From a virus, in IMG/VR virus record IMGVR_UViG_3300006071_000124, positions 1-20,171 of that record: DNA of 20,171 nt. One strand, 5' to 3'. Shown here piece after piece: positions 9,012 through 19,430 of this stretch. The first letter of the stretch is position 1. Each line of letters begins with the position of its first letter. Both the position numbers and the translations under genes were made by a program. The notes under the pieces were generated by a model. The model saw nothing but the letters and a program-made list of their open reading frames with translations. It ran no database searches and was not told the DNA's origin.

Positions 9012-11714
9012 TCAGATGTGTCTGTTTGCTACTTCTAAAGCCTTAACGACGTGCTCGTCAGGCGCGTTTAATATCTGCTTCGTGCCGTCGTTTATGCGCT
9101 TTCTAGACCGGTCGACTGCTTTCATTAGCATGTCCGCCGTCATTTCTCCGGGAATACGTCCGCCAGCTTTTCTCTGTAAGCGAGGGGGCTGACCGGCTTG
9201 CTCAATAGCGGCTGGATAGCCAACCTGCGGAATTGTCTTGCCTGTCTCTTCTGCCACCTTAGCAATTGCGCCAGACAAAGAAGAGAACGCCTCAGGTGAC
9301 GGCTTGCGCATTAGCTGAGCCATTAGCTTAGGGTCATGCATCGCCTCTTGCAGAAGCTTCATTGCGGCGTCTTTTGTCGTCCCATACAGGAATGAGTTCA
9401 TGCCAGAAACAATTGGCGCGGTAAGACCTTTGCCGACGCCCAGAAACCGAGCCGCGGCAGCGCCAAATGGCGCACCGCTTGCCGCGGTAGACACGCCCTC
9501 AGCTATGTGACCAAGAAGAGCCGCGGCGGCCACGTCAGGTATTGCGCCAGTAGCCCTGCCGTAAAGGATCGACATAATGTTGTTGTTTGCAAGCTTGTCT
9601 AACGTCTTCGTGCTTGTCAGATTGCCATGAGGAAGCTGAGACACAACCTTTGACGAACGATGCAAGGCGTCAATGTAATTTTGTAGGTCATGATCGCCCG
9701 CGGCAATGTCCTTTATCTTGTCTTTATTTCTGTCGAGAAAGTTAGACAAGCGCTTTGGATTATTACTGTCTGCCTCGCGCTGGAATGCTTCAGTCAATTG
9801 ACGCTTTTGCGCTGCCTCGACACTTTCTCCCGCACGTTGCGCAATATTCTCCACTCTTCCCCGCAACCCAGGAATTTCGTCAATCACTGACGCCATTTTA
9901 GGATCAGAAATAAATTTCTGAACGTCTTTTGGCGTCACATTAAAGTTCGTTCCGTTCTTCGTGAGCTTGCCAATAACCCAATTAGTTGTGGGCTCGTCAA
10001 TGTTAACGCCAGGGAGCTCGCGGACCATACGCAAGTTTTGCGCGGCATTTGGTCCTGAAAACATTTTATCAAAAACAGCTTCACCCGCGATACGCTCGCC
10101 GCCGCCTTGCATATCAGCCACAAGCTCAGACAGGAACTTTGGGCCAAATGTGTCGTGGTAATCTTTTGTCGCGGCGCGAGCCGTGTTCCACGCATTACGC
10201 TGAGCACCTGTCTTGTCACCAAAGAGAATATTCTTCTCGTTGTTGAGCATTTCAGCAAGCTTTGCCGCCACTTCGTTATTCGCGTGTTGCGTAAAATAAT
10301 CACCCTTCTCGCCAGCACTGCGCGCCGCAGAAAGTATTTGCGAGCGAAGATCCTGGAAGTGTAAGAGAGGAATGTTTTTGCCTTCAGTCTGGCTAAGAGC
10401 CTCAACGACAGACATGGCGTCAGCGTCGAGAGCCTTACGCTTTGATGGCGACATTGAATTGATGAAGTCGGCGAGCTCATTCATCGTTTTTGTTTTGTAG
10501 ATCGCGGCAGACTGAAGTCCGGGATGCGCCCACGCGGTCTTCTCTGCTTCTGCTTTTTGCTTCTCCAGGGCAGACACAACATTCTTAACTTGTATTGCCG
10601 CGTCGCCTTGTGGGTTTAAGGACGGAGGAAGGCCGGCGGCGGTCTCCATGTCGACTGGCTTAATGTGTGTGCCGACTTCACCAGGAACGCGAGGAGCCGC
10701 GGCAGTTGTCGCCTCAAGCGAGCGAGCCTCTTGCGCCTTGCGTCGCGCAATATCCTCCTCGCCTTCCTTGCGGCCCATGCCTTCTAGTCTGGTCTCAAGC
10801 GCCTTTGCCTCACCACCGCCAAGGACTTGCGCAGTTGTTGGCTGCACTTCTTCGACGTAACGACCTGGCTGGCCTTGTAGCGTTAACTCAGTCTCTAGGC
10901 GCGACGCCGCCTTTTCAGGCTCAGCAAAAGCTTCGCGTGCAACCTGTCCCGCAATTTTACTAGCGCGCTCCGCAACAGCCGGCGCAGCCCGTGCTTCAAG
11001 AAGTTTAGAAATTCCTGCCGCGCCTGCAGCGCCAGGAAGCGTGCCAAGAAGGCGGGCAGGCATCTCATACTTTGTGCCGCGCGTCAGTTCGCCTGCAATG
11101 CCAGAGCCAAGGCCGCCCAATGCGCCTGCGGCCAGTCTGGTGCCAATGCCGCCAGGTCCCGCCAAAGAGCCGCCAGTAAGCTCGCCTGTTGCTTCTGCGA
11201 CACGTCCCGGAAGTGTTTGCGGGTGATACTCAGGCATGCCGGCGCGAATTGCTGCTTGCTGCATGCCGTGAGCTGTCGGGACGGGAAGGCCGCCGATCGT
11301 TGTCACTTCACCGGCGAGCTCGCGCTCAGACGGTTTGTAGAACTCCTGGCCAAGTTTTTTGCCCGCTTCCATAAAACCAGCCGCGGTTTTTCCTGGTGGC
11401 AGCATGCCAAGAGCTTCAGCGCCCTCAGATAGTTTGCGCGTGCCATACTCGCCGGCAATATCATACAGCTGAGCCAAAGACCCAGGCATGCCGGGGATGC
11501 CGACTGCGCCTTTTGCTGCCCCAGACACAAACCCTTTACCGATATCTTCACCAAACCCTGGGGGTGTTGGCTTGCGCGCTGATGGCGGGTTGAACTTAAA
11601 TTCAGGCGTAGAGGTCGCGCTTCTTTCTGCCTCAACAAATGCGGGGGTTGGCGCTTCCTTTCTCCGCAAGCTTGGCGGGGAAAAGACGAAATCCTTCTTC
11701 TCTTCCTCTGCCAT
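9012..11714 (-). CDS. Putative internal virion / DNA-ejection protein (900 aa)
   Basis: No enzyme motif is visible. The chain begins with a Pro/Lys-rich unstructured segment (about 1-55). An Ala/Gly-rich hydrophobic part (about 60-245, such as GAAKGAVGIPGMPGSLAQLYD and LAAGALGGLGSGIAG) may insert in membranes. Long charged helical and coiled-coil parts follow from about 250 to 700. A second Ala-rich hydrophobic patch (about 725-785, AAAALLGHIAEG, GAAAARFLGVG) comes next, and K-A-G-G-R-I near 850-854 leads into a helical tail. This build and its position between the lysozyme-bearing protein and the fibre match the internal core proteins that podoviruses eject to form a channel. It starts with a TAATG one-base overlap with the gene before it. 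The ejection role is inferred. Confidence 0.7.
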   Translation of the reverse strand: MAEEEKKDFVFSPPSLRRKEAPTPAFVEAERSATSTPEFKFNPPSARKPTPPGFGEDIGKGFVSGAAKGAVGIPGMPGSLAQLYDIAGEYGTRKLSEGAEALGMLPPGKTAAGFMEAGKKLGQEFYKPSERELAGEVTTIGGLPVPTAHGMQQAAIRAGMPEYHPQTLPGRVAEATGELTGGSLAGPGGIGTRLAAGALGGLGSGIAGELTRGTKYEMPARLLGTLPGAAGAAGISKLLEARAAPAVAERASKIAGQVAREAFAEPEKAASRLETELTLQGQPGRYVEEVQPTTAQVLGGGEAKALETRLEGMGRKEGEEDIARRKAQEARSLEATTAAAPRVPGEVGTHIKPVDMETAAGLPPSLNPQGDAAIQVKNVVSALEKQKAEAEKTAWAHPGLQSAAIYKTKTMNELADFINSMSPSKRKALDADAMSVVEALSQTEGKNIPLLHFQDLRSQILSAARSAGEKGDYFTQHANNEVAAKLAEMLNNEKNILFGDKTGAQRNAWNTARAATKDYHDTFGPKFLSELVADMQGGGERIAGEAVFDKMFSGPNAAQNLRMVRELPGVNIDEPTTNWVIGKLTKNGTNFNVTPKDVQKFISDPKMASVIDEIPGLRGRVENIAQRAGESVEAAQKRQLTEAFQREADSNNPKRLSNFLDRNKDKIKDIAAGDHDLQNYIDALHRSSKVVSQLPHGNLTSTKTLDKLANNNIMSILYGRATGAIPDVAAAALLGHIAEGVSTAASGAPFGAAAARFLGVGKGLTAPIVSGMNSFLYGTTKDAAMKLLQEAMHDPKLMAQLMRKPSPEAFSSLSGAIAKVAEETGKTIPQVGYPAAIEQAGQPPRLQRKAGGRIPGEMTADMLMKAVDRSRKRINDGTKQILNAPDEHVVKALEVANRHI

Positions 11715-14700
11715 TACTTTTCTCCAAGGAGGATCGCCGCGACGCCTTTACCATACATTTTATCAATTTCGCCTTTACTGGATTTTACTTGGTCTTTTGT
11801 TAAAGACTTCAAGTAACCCATGTCGTCCTTGTCGATTGCTTCAAGGATGGCGCGATTAACATATCTCTCTGGAGTATTAAATTTTCTGAATGTTGTATCC
11901 GCTCCGGCAAGTGTGCCAAAGCGCGCCGCATAATCTTCCATAAACGCTAAGCGGTCTTGCTGATACTTTGCAGCCTCACGTAAGCCCGCGCTAATACGCT
12001 TATAAGCAATCGGGCTGTTTTCCATACCAGGATTTGCTCTTACTGCGCTTTGAACAATAAAGCCTGGCTCGTGCCCAAGAGACTTGGCAACATCAAAACC
12101 AAGACGCGTGGTGTCTTTTGACAAGGCTTCTGCCGCGGCAACATTGTTTGGATCAAACAAAGGTTGGCCGCCAAGCATTGTCGTTATTTCGTTTGCAGTC
12201 TTAGCAAGGTCTGTTCTTGCTTGAGACGCGGGCCCTGGCTCTAAGAAGTTTGCCTCCTTAGGCAGTTGATCAAATTGATGGTCCATTTCGTCAAGACGAA
12301 ATAGCTGATCAAATGCTGCCTTCGATGTTGTGCGAAGTCCTTCTACTTCTTTCTTAGCCGCTTCTTGCTGCTTAGGAAGATCTCCGCTCATTGCAATGTT
12401 AAGAGCGCCAGGGATCTTTGTATCTTTTGGCGCGGCAAGCGTCGGCTGCCAGTCAATGGCGTCACCCACTTTACGCTCTTTGCCTTGAACCTTTTCTTGA
12501 AGAGACTTCTTGCCAATATCTTCAATTCTTTCACCACCGCCGCGTGTTGGTATTTTATTAACGTCGACGTTTTTCGTTGGATTACCCTCAGCGTCAGAAA
12601 TCTGAACAGGCGTCTTGTATGGCTGCGTCTTGTCGTAGACCATCCAGCCAACATTTGGTGCCCACTGCTTCTCGTAAAGACCGGCAAGTTTTTCTTTCGT
12701 CTCTGCCGCCGCGCGTGCCGCGAGGTTCTCGCGCTCTTTAGTTTCAGCGGCGAGCTTTGGAACTTCAGCCTTGAGCTTCTCAATCTCTGGGATCTGCTTG
12801 CCGACATCCATGTAAGACTTAGCGCCAGCGCCAAGACCCGCACCCGCGCCTCTTAGCATTGCGCCACCAAGGCTTGTGGTCGGAGACGAAACCATCCCCT
12901 CAAGTGCAGCGCCAAGACCTGAAAGCAACGGCACCACTGTTTGACGGTTAAGGCCAAATCCTTCTTCAGATGGCTTAACACCTCCTGAAAGATTTACTGT
13001 CGATCCTTCTTCAGGAAGATTTGCCTGAGCGTAATAGCTTCTTGCATTTGGCGGTAAGTTAGAAAGGGCGTCTCCGACACCGCCGCGTAGCGTTTCATTT
13101 CTATTTGCCCAAGCTTTTGCGTATTTTCCGTATTTTTCAGGATCGCTAGCAACTAGATTATTAAGAAACGCCTCGCGCGCCGCCATGAACTTTTCAGGAT
13201 CATTTCCTGATTGCTTCAGGAATTGACGCGCACGTCCAGGCCCCGCCATGACTGCAGTGTCGTAAGCCATGCCGCGAACTCCTTCAGGGAGTTGGTCAGC
13301 ATTAATGCCTTGCCAGTATTCCTTGCGGTAGATGTCTTTGGCCTGGTCGCGCGTAAGGTTTTTAACGTCAATGCCCGGATGCGCGGCTTGATTGATGCCA
13401 TACATAGACGGCGTTCTGTTTGTGTCGCTTGGGTTCAGTCCGCCCTCAAACTTAAAGGTCTGCTCTACATTTCGCTCGAAGTCGTCTGACGGCTTAACAA
13501 AGCCTTCGCCTTCATACCCACGACGGTTGACTACACCGCCATCGTAATAGCCGACACGACCGCCGTCTTTTGCGAAAAAAGCAGCAGCAGGACCCAAGAA
13601 AGACCCGATTGATCCAAGGCCGCTCATAATAGAAGAGCCAAGCTCACTAAGACCCCCAAGAAAACCTGTATTAGCTGCAGCTCCAGCACCTTCGGCGGCC
13701 TTACCAAAAGTCGGAACGATCATGTCGCCTGCAGCGCCAACAGTGCCCCTCATCCCTGCGTCAGCAGCAGTTGAAGCGCCACCTGCTTTACTGAACAAGC
13801 TTCCAAGACCTATGTCTTTACCAAGGTCAACCGCCTGATTGGCAAGCCCCAGCAACCCAGACAAAGACGTCCCTTGCTTAGCGCCGCTCCCACCACCAAG
13901 GCCGCCTGGCGTTAACCCATGAGACCCTTGGATCTGTCCGGTAGGCATCGTTTGAGCCTTCTCAGCCTTGTCCATTTCCTCATACATTTTGGCTTGTTCT
14001 TGGGCTAACGCGGCAGGATCCGTGTCTACGGCACCAGTGAGATTGTATCCCTTACGACCAACAACTCCGCCGCGGTAATAATCTTTACCTGGCGTTAGAT
14101 CGATTACAGCGCCGCCCATACGCTCCTTGCCTTTGGCGCGACCGCCACGAGCCAGGAACATGCCAAATGGATTTTGAGCTTGAGCTTGATACGTCTGTTG
14201 ACCAGTGAGAGGGCCAAGTCCGCCGGCAAGTCCGCCAAAGAACTGCGCCTGCATGTATGGGAACATTTGCTGCTGCTGAAACTGATTGTATAGGGCGTTG
14301 ATGCCAGCTTGCTGCGTTTGCTGGCCAAGAGTGCCTGCCCCCAATTGTGCTTGAGCTTGACCAAGCGCCGCCTGCTGCGCGGCAGTGCCAAGATTGCCCA
14401 ACTGCTGTGCGCCTTGAAGACCGTATTGCTGCTGGTTCTGAGCCGCCTGAAGCGCCTGTCCGTATCCAGTTTGATACAGCGGGCTTAGTGCTTGACCAAG
14501 TCCAAGGTTCTGCTGACCCATAAGCGTCGCACGCTGAAGACCTGCGCGTTCTCCGCCAAAAGCGCCGCCTCTAATGGCGTCTGCCTGTTGCTGAGCTAAC
14601 TGCTGACCTTGCTGCTGTTGAACTGCCTGCTGAACCGGGCTAACAACCTGGTTCATGTAAGGGTTCATGTAGTTCCCAACTGTATTGTAGGCAGGGTTCA

Positions 14701-14998
14701 AGGCGTTCATTGTCGCGCCAGTGGCCATATTGTAATACGGCTGCGCCATGCCTTGCGTATTTGTAATATTTTGAATAGCGCCGGTCTGGGTAGGATTTAA
14801 CTGTGCGACAAATTGCTCTGGTGTAGTGCCAAATTGCTGGTAGGGCTGAGCAACATCATTTTGCGCCATGCCCATTGCCTGATTATACCAGCCAAGAGCC
14901 TGAGGAGACGCCTGTGTCGTTGCTTGTTGTGCGGGAGCCAATCCACCCCAGCCAAGGGCACCTGTCCCTCCGCCGCTTTGTGATCCTTTCCCGCACAT
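11714..14998 (-). CDS. Internal virion protein with embedded GH108 lysozyme domain (1094 aa)
   Basis: Residues 1-280 are low-complexity Gln/Ala/Gly with repeats of the QQ-x-G-x-x-A type. Residues 283-320 and 476-500 hold GGR/RGY boxes (ARGGRAKG, YYRGGVVGRKGY, KDGGRVGYYDGGVVNRRGYE). A glycoside-hydrolase-108-like muramidase follows at about 505-640, with catalytic-type E518 in F-K-F-E518-G-G, then P-S-M-Y-G-I-N, R-D-Q-A-K-D-I-Y-R-K-E-Y-W and a C-terminal peptidoglycan-binding-like helix around F-L-N-N-L-V-A-S-D. Residues 690-780 are hydrophobic then coiled-coil, and 850-1094 are helical. A lysozyme fused inside a long virion protein points to local opening of the cell wall during DNA entry, as with T7 gp16, rather than to a free endolysin. 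A GGAGAGAG site precedes the ATG. Confidence 0.82.
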   Translation of the reverse strand: MCGKGSQSGGGTGALGWGGLAPAQQATTQASPQALGWYNQAMGMAQNDVAQPYQQFGTTPEQFVAQLNPTQTGAIQNITNTQGMAQPYYNMATGATMNALNPAYNTVGNYMNPYMNQVVSPVQQAVQQQQGQQLAQQQADAIRGGAFGGERAGLQRATLMGQQNLGLGQALSPLYQTGYGQALQAAQNQQQYGLQGAQQLGNLGTAAQQAALGQAQAQLGAGTLGQQTQQAGINALYNQFQQQQMFPYMQAQFFGGLAGGLGPLTGQQTYQAQAQNPFGMFLARGGRAKGKERMGGAVIDLTPGKDYYRGGVVGRKGYNLTGAVDTDPAALAQEQAKMYEEMDKAEKAQTMPTGQIQGSHGLTPGGLGGGSGAKQGTSLSGLLGLANQAVDLGKDIGLGSLFSKAGGASTAADAGMRGTVGAAGDMIVPTFGKAAEGAGAAANTGFLGGLSELGSSIMSGLGSIGSFLGPAAAFFAKDGGRVGYYDGGVVNRRGYEGEGFVKPSDDFERNVEQTFKFEGGLNPSDTNRTPSMYGINQAAHPGIDVKNLTRDQAKDIYRKEYWQGINADQLPEGVRGMAYDTAVMAGPGRARQFLKQSGNDPEKFMAAREAFLNNLVASDPEKYGKYAKAWANRNETLRGGVGDALSNLPPNARSYYAQANLPEEGSTVNLSGGVKPSEEGFGLNRQTVVPLLSGLGAALEGMVSSPTTSLGGAMLRGAGAGLGAGAKSYMDVGKQIPEIEKLKAEVPKLAAETKERENLAARAAAETKEKLAGLYEKQWAPNVGWMVYDKTQPYKTPVQISDAEGNPTKNVDVNKIPTRGGGERIEDIGKKSLQEKVQGKERKVGDAIDWQPTLAAPKDTKIPGALNIAMSGDLPKQQEAAKKEVEGLRTTSKAAFDQLFRLDEMDHQFDQLPKEANFLEPGPASQARTDLAKTANEITTMLGGQPLFDPNNVAAAEALSKDTTRLGFDVAKSLGHEPGFIVQSAVRANPGMENSPIAYKRISAGLREAAKYQQDRLAFMEDYAARFGTLAGADTTFRKFNTPERYVNRAILEAIDKDDMGYLKSLTKDQVKSSKGEIDKMYGKGVAAILLGEK

Positions 14999-15010: not shown

Positions 15011-15526
15011 TTATTGCCTGACTTCGACAGCTGGCTCTTGCCAGCCACCAGTTTTTACGCCGTATAGGAAGAAAGCACCGGCAGGAGCGCCAAACACTCT
15101 CTCATAAAGCTTGACCTTGCTTTCGGTTCTGTGGGTAGATAATACACCAATAATGAGCGGCATACCAAGTTCGTCTGCCACTTGCTTGCTGAACTCGCAA
15201 AGTTTTCTCGCCCGGCCACCGCTTGCGCCCCTATGCTTTGGGTGAACAAATACGGTTTTTTCCTCAATTATTGGCGCGTCAGAATACCACATTGTTCCTA
15301 CGCGTAACAAAACGAAGCCTTCGACCATCTCGCCAGGGGTTCCGATGACACCAACCAGGCCGTGGTCCTGGTGCAAAGACATCCAAATATCCCACAAAAT
15401 CTTATCGACATTTGGCTTAAAAATTCCGTTTTCCTTGCACACCATAAGCGCCAATTCCATGACGCCGTCGACATCTTGCGGCACGCCAACTCTTATCTTT
15501 ACCTCTTCTATAGGTTTTCGCGGCAT
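15011..15526 (-). CDS. GNAT-family N-acetyltransferase in the virion operon
   Basis: Predicted acetyl-CoA-dependent N-acetyltransferase. The core motif is clear: T-V-F-V-H-P-K-H-R-G-A-S-G-G-R-A at 91-106, where the R-G-x-x-G-G-R-A loop binds the pyrophosphate of acetyl-CoA. The following helix is R-K-L-C-E-F-S-K-Q-V-A. L-I-I-G-V-L-S forms the next strand and K-L-Y-E-R-V-F-G closes the fold at 139-146. Length (171 aa) is normal for a stand-alone GNAT. An AAGGGGGA ribosome-binding site precedes the ATG. It lies between the 168-aa virion-type gene and the lysozyme-bearing gene, with gaps of 9 and 12 bases, so it is expressed late with structural proteins. The substrate is unknown; a virion or host surface or protein amine is possible. 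Confidence 0.85.
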   Translation of the reverse strand: MPRKPIEEVKIRVGVPQDVDGVMELALMVCKENGIFKPNVDKILWDIWMSLHQDHGLVGVIGTPGEMVEGFVLLRVGTMWYSDAPIIEEKTVFVHPKHRGASGGRARKLCEFSKQVADELGMPLIIGVLSTHRTESKVKLYERVFGAPAGAFFLYGVKTGGWQEPAVEVRQ

Positions 15527-16050: not shown

Positions 16051-16644
16051 TCAGTCCAGTGAGTAGTTAACAGCAACAGTTTGACCAGTGCCGATAGATA
16101 CATAAATTCCATTAGAAAATTGAGAACCAACTTGTAGCGTTCCAATAGTCGTGGAAGATGCCGCAATTTTATTTGCAGTGCTGACATTGAAAACCGTTCC
16201 GGGAACAGTTTGAGACCCAGTAACGCTTGGGAGCGCATATGTTATTTGATTGCTGGTTGGTGTGCCGGTAACTGTAAAAAGACCGTTATATCCAGAAGGA
16301 ACAACGCCAGCAACATACACGCTGTCGCCAACGCTAAATAAGCTTGCCCCATTATACGTTATTGTCGCAACGCCACCAGCGCCGCCGGTTCCTGCCGTTG
16401 CAGTCGTGGCGTAGGTAATATAATTAAAAAATGTGCTGCTTGCCGTTCCGGCAACAACTGTATTTACGCTAACAAGGCGTCCAGGTTTATTCGTTATAAC
16501 GCCAGATGTTGAGTAGCCGAGAGATGTATATTGACCATTTAGATATCCATACAATTTATCAATTGCCTGCATTGTCTGATTAAGATTATTAATCGCAACG
16601 ACGCCGTTTTTTTGTGTTGTGAGGATATCGTCAAGCGTAGCCAT
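16051..16644 (-). CDS. Tail-associated protein carrying one hub-type beta repeat (197 aa)
   Basis: The N-terminus (DDILTTQKNGVVAINNLNQT) is a short helical head found in small virion proteins. Residues 90-140 are one copy of the G-V-A-T-I-T-Y ... F-S-V-G-D-S-V-Y-V-A-G-V-V-P-S-G-Y-N-G domain that is repeated in the preceding tail-hub protein. The C-terminus is Thr/Ser/Val-rich and beta-like. The ATG is joined to the hub stop by a TAATG overlap, and GGAAAG in the hub gene is its ribosome-binding site, so the two are made together. Sharing a domain with its operon neighbour suggests that it docks on the hub or stacks with it. No enzymatic motif is visible. Confidence 0.75.
   Translation of the reverse strand: MATLDDILTTQKNGVVAINNLNQTMQAIDKLYGYLNGQYTSLGYSTSGVITNKPGRLVSVNTVVAGTASSTFFNYITYATTATAGTGGAGGVATITYNGASLFSVGDSVYVAGVVPSGYNGLFTVTGTPTSNQITYALPSVTGSQTVPGTVFNVSTANKIAASSTTIGTLQVGSQFSNGIYVSIGTGQTVAVNYSLD
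16225..16377 (-). repeat. Single beta-repeat copy in the 197-aa tail protein
   Basis: Residues 90-140 match the third hub copy closely: A-T-I/L-T, F-S/Q-V-G-D/E, V-P/S-P-S-G-Y-N-G, T-V-T and Y-A-L at the same spacing. It belongs to the same domain family as the array at 18063-19043, so the unit was copied across a gene boundary or the two genes share an ancestor. Confidence 0.75.
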
Positions 16645-19430
16645 TAGAACTTTCCGTCTTGTTCAACGCGATAACGTATACCACCAATACGCCAGAAAGT
16701 TCCTACTTCAGTTGGCGAGCTCTGCAAATTAATTGCCATCAACCTGCCGCGGAAGCGTGGAGTTATGTATTGCGTCGTGTTTGTCAGCGTATACGGTCCA
16801 TATACGCGAGGGGTGTCTGTAGGATAATCGGCGACATAGAAAGTCATGAGAACGTGAGCGGTTTGATCGCCGCCGTAGTATCCCCATTTCATGTCCGGCC
16901 ACACCTGGTCTACAAATACTTTCATCTCGCCTTCTTGCATGGCGAAATAGCCAGTCTGGAAGGTTGACGCCATTGGAAGGCCATCAGCATCAGGAGATGT
17001 TTCGTGCTGATAAACATAATTGCTTCCTGATGATATGCCGGCACCTATTGGTGCGCCAAGGACGCTTTCATTAATCCAGGCAGTTCTTGTCAGCGTCCCA
17101 AAATCCCATTGGTCAAGATAGACGTTATATTTTACATACTTTGTTATCTCGCCGTTACTATTTGTTGTTGGGTAATACCACGCAATCTCTCCAAATCTCG
17201 AATTAGCGGCGGCTCGTATTTTGTATAAATAGTTGCGGTCAAGATCCTGAAAAATAACGTCCCAAACCGGACATTTAATTATCTCAACACCGGACCCAGA
17301 CAATTTAAAAAATTGGCTTTGACCCATCCAGTAAACAACACCATTCATTGACGCCGCGCCTTTGCGTGCAATCATGCCGCAGCCCGTGCCAATCTCGTTA
17401 AATTGATATACATACGGAGGCCCAACGTATTGCATCGCCCAAAGAGCTATGTCAGTCCATAGCAATCCTTGCTGCGGGCCCTGAATAGCTCCGACTATTT
17501 TAGAGCCTCTTGGAATGCGATAAGATCCAGCCTGGTTGGTTATTGACGAAATCCACTGCGTGTAATCATTAACATCGCTCCAGCGGACAAGTAGGGGATC
17601 TTGAATGCCGCTATACGTAGACCCCCACGCGACAACTTGCCTTTGAGGCATCGCGACAAACATTCCATCGTTTACCGTTGGAGCTCCAGAAATAACAGAG
17701 GCAACAACCGCCCCAGTTCCGGGGGCCCAAGTATATATTTCACCATTTATTGGGCATGCCATAAATATGGACCCCCAATTATCCAAGGTCCAATCAATTG
17801 TTGTAATTGGAGTTCCCTGAACTGTGGCGGGCGGAATAACGCCAGTCCCGTAACCGCCGGCCCCATATCCGCCAATGCCGTATCCCACGCCAAGAGGAAG
17901 AGGAGCAGGTGTTCTATAAAATTCGTATTTAGCCTCGCCGCCATTCATTCTGGCTACAAGACTGAATACCGTTCCGTCTGCGGTATATGCCCCAGGGTTT
18001 ACGGCGACCGCGTAAGCCACATACCCGCGAATAAGGCCAATTGATACGAATGTTCCAGGGTTGCTTGCTAGGGCATAAGAAACAGTCGTGTCTGTTTTTG
18101 CTGTTACAGTATAAGTTCCATTGTATCCGCTAGGGGACACGCTCGCGACGTATATTGTTTCGCCAACCTGAAATGTTCTGTCGCCACTAAACGTAAGCGT
18201 TGCCGTCCCTGAACTCCAAACAGCGTTTGTAACAAGAACCTGATCAGCCGCATCAACAACAGTAGATCCTGTAGACGCTGTATTATAGCCAGAGGGAGAC
18301 ACGCCGGAAACAACGACGGTGTCTCCAAGATTAAATACATAATCACCGCTATAGACAACTCTTGCGACGCCTCCTGACCAGGTGGCAGTAATAGTTGGCG
18401 CGGTTGACGCGGTGTATCCGGCAATAATAGTAAATTGAGACGTCGATACTACAGAGGCTACATTGTAGTTGCCGTATATTGTAACACCGCCGGCTATTGT
18501 TGAAACAACTGCCGGAAACGTGTCCCCGACAAGATACCCGTGATTTGCAAGCGTAACAATAATTTGAGACTGTGTGTTCGTCAGTGTGTATGTCGGAACA
18601 GCGCCACCGCCAGGAGATACAACAGTCGACGTGGCGGGAAGAGGAGAGCCTGTTGCGTCTATTGACGTAATTCTAAACTGATCTCCACTTAAAAATGTGC
18701 AATTATATGTTCCAAATAAAACTAACCCGTCTACCGCTATTTGTGTTTTTATGTAAACCGTATCATAGTTTGTAACATTTGACCCGTAAGCATTGACGTC
18801 TACAGAACTATCTCCGGCCCGCGTTATGATCCCATTTTGTGATGAATACGAAAGAGTTCCAACAACTGTGGCATTTCCTGTCCCTGACGTAATATTGAAG
18901 CAAAAACTACTTCTTGTGGGGGCAGGTGTCGCAAGGATTGTTTGAGTTCCGTTATAGGCACCAGGCGTAAACCCACTTAATGTAACGGTCTCTCCAGTGT
19001 GAAAAATATAATCTCCGTCAAACACAATTGTTGCAATACCTGAACTTTCAGATGCAGAAATTACTGGTATCACGATGGGAGACGCGGTCGGGAGTAAGTA
19101 ATTAAAAGTATCCGTCCGCGGCGTTATAACAGCACGAGATCCATTATATATAACAGACAGCCCATTACCGTCGACACCCGTTCCTTCTTGGCCAAGACCA
19201 AGATACGTATTAGCGTTTGTGTCTTCCCATGCCCATAATGCGCGAACAATTGAGCCAACTGTATTGCTAAAATATTTTGTCCAGCCGCCAAGCTTTTGTA
19301 TAAGAGCTATCTGACCCTGTTTATCAGGAACAAACCGGACAAGGTTTGTCGTAGATATTGCCGCCTCATTGAGGGTTGGTGTCCTGTTTTGGTCAACGCC
19401 AGGTATAAGTTTGAGTGTTTGATGCGGCAT
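16644..19430 (-). CDS. Tail hub/stabilisation protein (P22 gp10-like), with inserted beta repeats
   Basis: Long beta-rich tail protein of 928 residues. Its head (K-L-I-P-G-V-D-Q-N-R-T-P-T-L-N-E) and V-Q/L-I-Q-K-L-G-G-W-T match a family of short-tail structural proteins placed after the head-tail adaptor. The C-terminus, with I-T-P-R-F-R-G-R-L-M and W-R-I-G-G-I-R-Y-R-V, recalls the P22 gp10 end. Three clear copies of a roughly 50-residue F-x-V-G-D/E-T-V-x-V-S-G-x-x-P-S-G-Y-N unit lie at about 130-180, 355-396 and 407-456, with two more divergent ones at 206-256 and 285-336. From 545 on, W-containing repeats look like propeller blades. Placement directly after the adaptor supports a tail-hub/nozzle role. 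The exact equivalence to gp10 rather than T7 gp12 is inferred. Confidence 0.75.
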   Translation of the reverse strand: MPHQTLKLIPGVDQNRTPTLNEAAISTTNLVRFVPDKQGQIALIQKLGGWTKYFSNTVGSIVRALWAWEDTNANTYLGLGQEGTGVDGNGLSVIYNGSRAVITPRTDTFNYLLPTASPIVIPVISASESSGIATIVFDGDYIFHTGETVTLSGFTPGAYNGTQTILATPAPTRSSFCFNITSGTGNATVVGTLSYSSQNGIITRAGDSSVDVNAYGSNVTNYDTVYIKTQIAVDGLVLFGTYNCTFLSGDQFRITSIDATGSPLPATSTVVSPGGGAVPTYTLTNTQSQIIVTLANHGYLVGDTFPAVVSTIAGGVTIYGNYNVASVVSTSQFTIIAGYTASTAPTITATWSGGVARVVYSGDYVFNLGDTVVVSGVSPSGYNTASTGSTVVDAADQVLVTNAVWSSGTATLTFSGDRTFQVGETIYVASVSPSGYNGTYTVTAKTDTTVSYALASNPGTFVSIGLIRGYVAYAVAVNPGAYTADGTVFSLVARMNGGEAKYEFYRTPAPLPLGVGYGIGGYGAGGYGTGVIPPATVQGTPITTIDWTLDNWGSIFMACPINGEIYTWAPGTGAVVASVISGAPTVNDGMFVAMPQRQVVAWGSTYSGIQDPLLVRWSDVNDYTQWISSITNQAGSYRIPRGSKIVGAIQGPQQGLLWTDIALWAMQYVGPPYVYQFNEIGTGCGMIARKGAASMNGVVYWMGQSQFFKLSGSGVEIIKCPVWDVIFQDLDRNYLYKIRAAANSRFGEIAWYYPTTNSNGEITKYVKYNVYLDQWDFGTLTRTAWINESVLGAPIGAGISSGSNYVYQHETSPDADGLPMASTFQTGYFAMQEGEMKVFVDQVWPDMKWGYYGGDQTAHVLMTFYVADYPTDTPRVYGPYTLTNTTQYITPRFRGRLMAINLQSSPTEVGTFWRIGGIRYRVEQDGKF
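18063..19043 (-). repeat. Tandem beta-repeat array within the tail-hub gene
   Basis: Clear copies lie at 18891-19043, 18243-18368 and 18063-18212, with divergent copies at about 18663-18815 and 18423-18578. The shared protein pattern is a T-I/V-x-F/Y-x-G-D strand, F-x-x-G-D/E-T-V, V-S-G, then P-S-G-Y-N-G-T-Y-T-V. The protein pattern is conserved more than the DNA, so this is an old duplication kept by selection, not a recent slippage array. Confidence 0.75.

Follow-up and report, generated by a model that had tools for sequence, protein, structure and literature searches.

Two long neighbouring proteins encoded in a 20,171-nucleotide stretch of viral DNA (IMG/VR record IMGVR_UViG_3300006071_000124, positions 1 to 20,171; hereafter the window) contain short Gly-Gly boxes, and the locus raises the question of what these boxes are and what they do. 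A reading of the sequence alone (hereafter the sequence-only reading) had described them as recurring GGR and RGY boxes that form one common signal for capsid loading, DNA or membrane binding, or maturation cleavage. Pilot proteins are components of the virion that exit before the DNA does. Ejection and tape-measure proteins have similar jobs, which they reach by different routes, and both are hard to study.

The first protein, P0001 (1094 aa; 11714..14998, minus strand), matches both phrog_4287 and the Pfam family GH108. Its N-terminal domain (aa 25–284; 14147..14926, minus strand) matches the DNA ejection protein phrog_4287 with an E value of 1.5e-5, and its GH108 muralytic domain (aa 512–586; 13241..13465, minus strand) scores 48.7 bits against a Pfam cut-off of 21.2. 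A hydrophobic segment (about aa 455–476; 13571..13636, minus strand), with limits set by eye on the hydropathy profile, lies before the second box, and the 130 aa preceding that box rank highest in hydropathy within the protein. From these domain matches, we identify P0001 as the fusion of a DNA-ejection-type protein with a GH108 lysozyme. The genes ahead of it encode SU10-adaptor-like, gp10-like, 197-aa, P0003 and acetyltransferase-like proteins, and its placement after the adaptor- and gp10-like genes (SU10 adaptor, phrog_3287) fits an ejection protein of the phrog_4287 type. The second protein, P0002 (900 aa; 9012..11714, minus strand), is by position and gene order a probable further ejection protein; it has no Pfam or PHROG match and no recognised muralytic domain. 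Its conserved C-terminal tail (aa 846–900; 9015..9179, minus strand) carries a box near its start. Both window proteins are probably ejected.

The gp10-like gene encodes a 928-aa protein (16644..19430, minus strand; phrog_3287), whose likeness to P22 gp10 comes through the annotation of a relative, MW202675; this record has the same gene order, with a 'phage stabilization protein', a label which we take to mean P22 gp10, annotated where the window has the 928-aa protein. Among relatives, the length of the gp10-like protein ranges between 766 and 948 aa, and the 197-aa (16051–16644) and 928-aa proteins of the window both match phrog_9998, which suggests a shared repeated module. A GNAT-like acetyltransferase gene (15011–15526) lies inside the structural operon, and several distant phages have an acetyltransferase annotated at a comparable place. 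P0003 (15536..16042, minus strand) is a small neighbour with two repeats, GSYVIP and GEYVI, that served as bait for collecting relatives. Its N-terminal 42 aa match phrog_2423 and are followed by the repeats TDHLPV..GSYVIP and PVEV..GEYVI, which resemble tape-measure modules. In P0010, a relative of P0003, the first 37–46 aa match regions annotated as head maturation protease in Acinetobacter phages. Among bacterial genome contigs, just two gave a P0003 relative (L241 and L242, from an Acidithiobacillales MAG and a Paceibacterota MAG).

The four boxes sit at the residues given by the sequence-only reading, which had placed them at 9156–14150; the range is about right, with a few bases of the outer boxes clipped. 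In the 1094-aa protein, ARGGRAKG (aa 283–290; 14129..14152, minus strand) occupies the spot at which relatives have an S74 domain. It is followed by the first junction box, RMGGAV..YYRGGVVGRKGY (aa 293–318; 14045..14122, minus strand), which includes RGGVVGRKGY (from aa 309; 14045–14074, minus strand). The second junction box, KDGGRVGYYDGGVVNRRGYE (aa 477–496; 13511..13570, minus strand), directly precedes the lysozyme. The 900-aa protein has KAGGRIPGE (aa 849–857; 9144..9170, minus strand), with Arg848 immediately before it. KFEGGLNP in the GH108 stretch also has a Gly-Gly pair and was counted as part of the enzyme domain. Tandem DNA repeats were looked for in the window and none were found.

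The short label under which the boxes had been described proved too loose. GGR alone is at chance level in both proteins (p 0.17–0.20 in the 1094-aa protein and 0.39–0.43 in the 900-aa protein), as is RGY alone (p 0.19). These values, and the many copies of the short core GG[^G][VI] expected from shuffles (see below), are what would favour a mere composition artefact of Gly/Arg-rich proteins. The extended form is non-random: the pair YYRGGVVGRKGY and YYDGGVVNRRGY is identical at nine of 12 positions, which was equalled in none of 200 global and two of 200 local shuffles, and the core GG[VIL][VIL]x[RK]xGY occurs twice in the 1094-aa protein and never in 2,000 global and 2,000 local shuffles. 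The random-composition control is therefore divided, with short GGR and RGY no better than shuffles and the extended boxes far above both local-composition shuffles and the permuted-codon controls described below. A composition artefact is effectively refuted for the extended boxes and is extremely improbable overall; the extended box, and not the short GGR/RGY label, is the real feature. The idea of a single signal common to both window proteins did not survive, since the short forms are at chance and there are two box types, GGVVxRxGY in the 1094-aa protein and RKAGGRI in the 900-aa protein, which differ in both sequence and context.

Relatives came from two scans of viral contigs, with 80 loci (the best 80 of 518) and 45 loci, respectively; most were gathered with P0003 or the P0002 tail as bait, so the set represents a single broad kind of phage. 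Among 1745 ORFs in 135 sequences, 98 match the ejection N-domain and 83 match the P0002 tail, with zero overlap. Grouping the 86 N-domain proteins with a length of 500 aa or more at 70% identity gave 53 clusters. In the 53 cluster representatives, GG[^G][VI] is observed 179 times against 70.8 expected from local shuffles. Copies of the tandem box GGx[VI].{2,11}[YF].{1,2}GG number 74, in 49 of the 53 clusters, against 1.75 expected (200 shuffles, maximum 6); these enrichment ratios are not probabilities, as the sequences are related and not independent. The boxes are thus kept in diverged relatives. Among the ORF families listed, the tandem box is nearly exclusive to the N-domain ejection family (57 versus one elsewhere). 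In the second box, GG, V, R, G and Y are invariant across five relatives despite diverging flanks.

The box of the 900-aa protein belongs to a second type, R[AK]xGG[RK][VI], and opens the conserved C-terminal tail. The last 55 residues of P0002 are conserved among relatives in which the identity of the whole protein falls to 27%. Among 55 distinct P0002-type tails, Arg stands at position −3 in 49 and Ala or Lys at −2 in 50; Arg or Lys follows GG in 49, and GG[RK] together with V, I, L or A was counted in 52. The form R[AK]xGGx[VIL] is present in 51 of 65 distinct tail-family ORFs, compared with nine of the 79 ejection ORFs and 32 of the remaining 1306.

Domain models for the relatives, seeded from Pfam hits, gave a usual order of N-domain, optional S74 domain, box (S/RMGGAV..GxYxxGG), spacer, optional second S74 domain, box (FAYGGLVPRxGYAxGG and variants), muralytic domain and C-terminal part. 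The muralytic domain is swapped among five families (GH108, SLT, Phage_lysozyme2, Phage_lysozyme and Hydrolase_2). The boxes hold their position at the module joints regardless of whether S74 domains are embedded and of which lysozyme is present, so that their placement at boundaries, first noticed in the window protein, extends to the relatives. Two S74 domains are found in 24 of the 53 representatives, one in 19 and none in ten. SDxRxK, the self-cleavage motif of the endosialidase chaperone, is present in all 67 embedded S74 domains (43 of 53 relatives), and all 67 are followed by a Gly-Gly pair within 70 aa (mean 37 and maximum 50 for random positions). The phrog_4287 profile ends with an S74 domain behind the N-domain, a trait that is variable and not fixed: the domain is missing in ten of the 53 representatives and in the window, where Pfam and model searches of the 1094-aa protein found no S74 domain with SDxRxK. 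At the end of the N-domain, the window runs from NPFGMFL straight into the box (NPFGMFL-ARGG), whereas L015 has SPFGMFL-SDPRAK, with the S74 domain then leading to ARMGGAV; in L017, ARMGGAVIDMEPGKDYSRGGYARGG directly follows the S74 domain. Ejection-type proteins in which one or two S74 domains are embedded, such as L113:294-4862 and L041:8983-14613, are possible self-cutting polyproteins. DUF4214 domains are present in box-bearing proteins from more than one family (L041:8983-14613, L186:1814-4375 and L225:328-3603).

In six records the parts are encoded by separate genes (Sulfitobacter pCB2047-C, Rhizobium RHph_N2, EBPR podovirus 2, Microcystis Mwe-JY13, Pseudomonas PAE2 and Bradyrhizobium ppBeUSDA76-2). 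The S74-bearing ORF of these records stops 61–71 aa past the start of the S74 domain, at about the point where box 1 starts in the fused form, and the next gene is annotated as a peptidoglycan hydrolase in two of the six. The tandem box was found in none of the 18 proteins examined from these records. They are tied to the window family by S74, gene order and PHROG (phrog_6121 in six of six and phrog_4287 in four of six). The N-domain model finds no significant match in them (best E value 0.059), which speaks against a simple fusion. A full-length match to phrog_4287 is seen in the Bradyrhizobium protein alone, and the N-terminal parts of the separate-gene records may therefore not be homologous to that of the window. 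The domain comparison suggests a fusion, solidly for one record and less firmly for the rest. The coincidence of the ORF end with box 1 is the point in favour of regarding the boxes as leftovers of joints formed by gene fusion or recombination and kept at the DNA level. The strict box is, however, encoded by 25 distinct DNA versions with several synonymous codons per position, from which it follows that selection acts on the peptide. A DNA-level element was rejected on these grounds, and we consider fusion leftovers very unlikely.

The boxes extend beyond the collected relatives. A strict DNA pattern for GG[LV]VPRxGYA gave 29 stretches in viral contigs, some from relatives already collected, and all 29 lie in frame inside long ORFs, 22 with the N-domain and the other seven with S74 or a muralytic domain. 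In 2.9 million viral contigs, a second pattern, [FY]AxGG[IVM]VGYAxGG, gave 69 stretches, against zero for each of two permuted-codon controls; because it demands Phe or Tyr where T5 has Arg, this pattern cannot detect type-R boxes. It corresponds to 70 ORF matches, 21 of which have the ejection N-domain. PHROG assignment of 19 of the 70 gave eight tape-measure proteins, one DNA ejection protein, one lytic tail protein and nine without a match, and 23 of the 70 group with a tape-measure match in blastp clusters. The other 26 have no class by N-domain, PHROG or blastp; three cluster with an SLT domain. The statement in the sequence-only reading that similar boxes occur in virion proteins of other phages was right in substance, as they are present in both ejection and tape-measure proteins. 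This joint occurrence would suit docking tags, by which the boxes and the C-terminal tail load proteins into the head or tail via the portal, scaffold or hub, as would the 900-aa tail, which is conserved on otherwise very diverged proteins like a sorting tag. Internal copies before lysozymes, several per protein, are unlike a terminal sorting signal, and tape-measure proteins assemble in tails, not heads; docking is an unlikely role.

The AlphaFold2 model of the 1094-aa protein, of low confidence overall, has both boxed regions as coil (mean confidence about 25–32) between the helical N-domain and the lysozyme. In this model and in that of L113 aa 433–1005 the mean confidence is low (54) and the boxes are coil at ∼25–40, while the S74 and C-terminal parts are folded. 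A folded hairpin was rejected for the box, which is low-confidence coil in both models. Such coil at module joints would be expected of uncut flexible hinges, in which turns at Gly-Gly would allow a long protein to be unfolded, threaded through the narrow tail and refolded, with Val, Tyr and Arg serving solubility or weak contacts; hinges would also explain the variable copy number and the domain swapping. The sequence is more specific than a mere linker would require, given the permuted-codon result (zero versus 69) and a second box whose GG, V, R, G and Y stay unchanged in five relatives while the flanks diverge. We regard hinges as a genuine possibility that falls well short of an even chance.

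All 30 muralytic-bearing cluster representatives have a Gly-Gly box 10 to 155 aa upstream of the muralytic domain, and in 14 of the 30 the hydropathy maximum of the protein lies within the 130 aa before the box (3.13 expected; zero of 20,000 simulations). A comparable layout is described for the tape-measure protein pb2 of phage T5, which is cut after R1127, as located by mass spectrometry, between a hydrophobic stretch and a muralytic domain (PMC10038345). The sequence around the R1127–A1128 bond is NSFVPR before the cut and AEGGMMYPG after it, and RAxGG is found in nine of nine T5-type tape-measure proteins (T5 and eight further records hand-picked from 60 listed of 908, one of which, CRP-811, is a marginal match with an E value of about 1). 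The 900-aa box type matches this cut site. Maturation cleavage, one of the roles that had been proposed for the boxes, thereby gains outside support from the T5 R-AEGG cut; no result here favours capsid loading, DNA binding or membrane binding.

We therefore tentatively favour, at somewhat less than even confidence, module-junction motifs of pilot proteins that are most likely to be exposed flexible processing sites, as in T5 pb2; the boxes may mark sites of cutting or bending in ejection proteins. Those of the 1094-aa protein lie between the N-terminal ejection domain and the rest and between the hydrophobic stretch and the lysozyme, and in the 900-aa protein the box opens the conserved C-terminal tail. 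A cut next to Arg and close to Gly-Gly, made in the course of assembly or ejection, would separate the muralytic domain or the tail from the hydrophobic segment in the manner of T5 pb2. Cleavage in the window phage, the bond that would be cut and the enzyme are put forward by analogy, and the analogy fits the 900-aa box better than the 1094-aa boxes, in which the Arg at the T5 position is missing (FLARGG, ERMGG, YYRGG, FAKDGG and YYDGG), leaving only the 900-aa box in register. Further points weigh against cleavage: Arg or Lys occurs soon after the GG core in just 17 of the 30 pre-lysozyme boxes (a GY/HF-like end in 13), and the single mapped T5 site near Gly-Gly could be a coincidence, with a chance of roughly 3% by our own arithmetic for five Gly-Gly pairs in 1219 residues. 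A protease encoded by the phage itself was rejected for three families: Peptidase_S78 was not found in the 43 kb contig of one relative, nor CLP_protease or Peptidase_S49 in the contigs of two (43 and 62 kb), all possibly fragments. Another protease, or one of the host, must accordingly be assumed.

A broader proposal is that ejection proteins of short-tailed phages and tape-measure proteins of long-tailed ones share a portable Gly-Gly processing signal, the same kind of host protease and the release of muralytic or C-terminal cargo, and that many relatives are in addition self-cutting S74 polyproteins, with one or two embedded autoproteases per protein that would each lead into a box; we consider it rather doubtful. 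If processing at the boxes is real, a shared motif at the joint between a channel-like segment and its muralytic cargo would make such processing testable across many uncultured phages, and the motif would be a sequence handle for finding ejection and tape-measure proteins. A second, unexpected means of splitting the same protein is suggested by the S74 domains embedded in relatives.

Processing of tape-measure proteins is described as common (PMC1796659), and other reports mention the movement of lysozyme domains between ejection proteins with possible host cleavage of P22 gp20 (PMC8954989) and a T5-like cut assumed for phage JBD30 (PMC11445458). Open-licence literature, mostly in the form of listings and the beginnings of abstracts, yielded no paper on the boxes or on S74 inside ejection proteins. 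Compared with Peptidase_S74, the endosialidase intramolecular chaperone, the embedded domains of relatives keep SDxRxK (67 of 67), but are internal and lead directly into a Gly-Gly box, and they do not have the C-terminal helix-like stretch seen in P0004, the S74 fibre protein of the window itself. The phrog_4287 DNA ejection system, with its P22-like gene order, resembles the window in the N-domain match and in gene order; it differs in that the window has one fused ORF with boxes and without S74, whereas the six separate-gene records are split. Lambda gpH has FATGG (GG at 736) and YATGG (GG at 781), both in its last 120 residues, which resemble the [FY]AxGG half of the long boxes, but it does not have the GGxV..GYxxGG tandem. 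It undergoes cleavage (PMC3224144); gpH was rejected as a second mapped cut site, as the literature searched gave no cut position. The closest parallel is T5 pb2, in which the R-A-x-G-G register equals R848-K-A-G-G of the 900-aa protein and that of most of its relatives, while the hydrophobic stretch before and the muralytic domain after the box have their counterpart in the 1094-aa protein only. T5 pb2 is a siphophage tail protein, in contrast to the putative short-tailed-phage ejection protein of the window, whose muralytic protein carries the other box type and would be cleaved there only by analogy.
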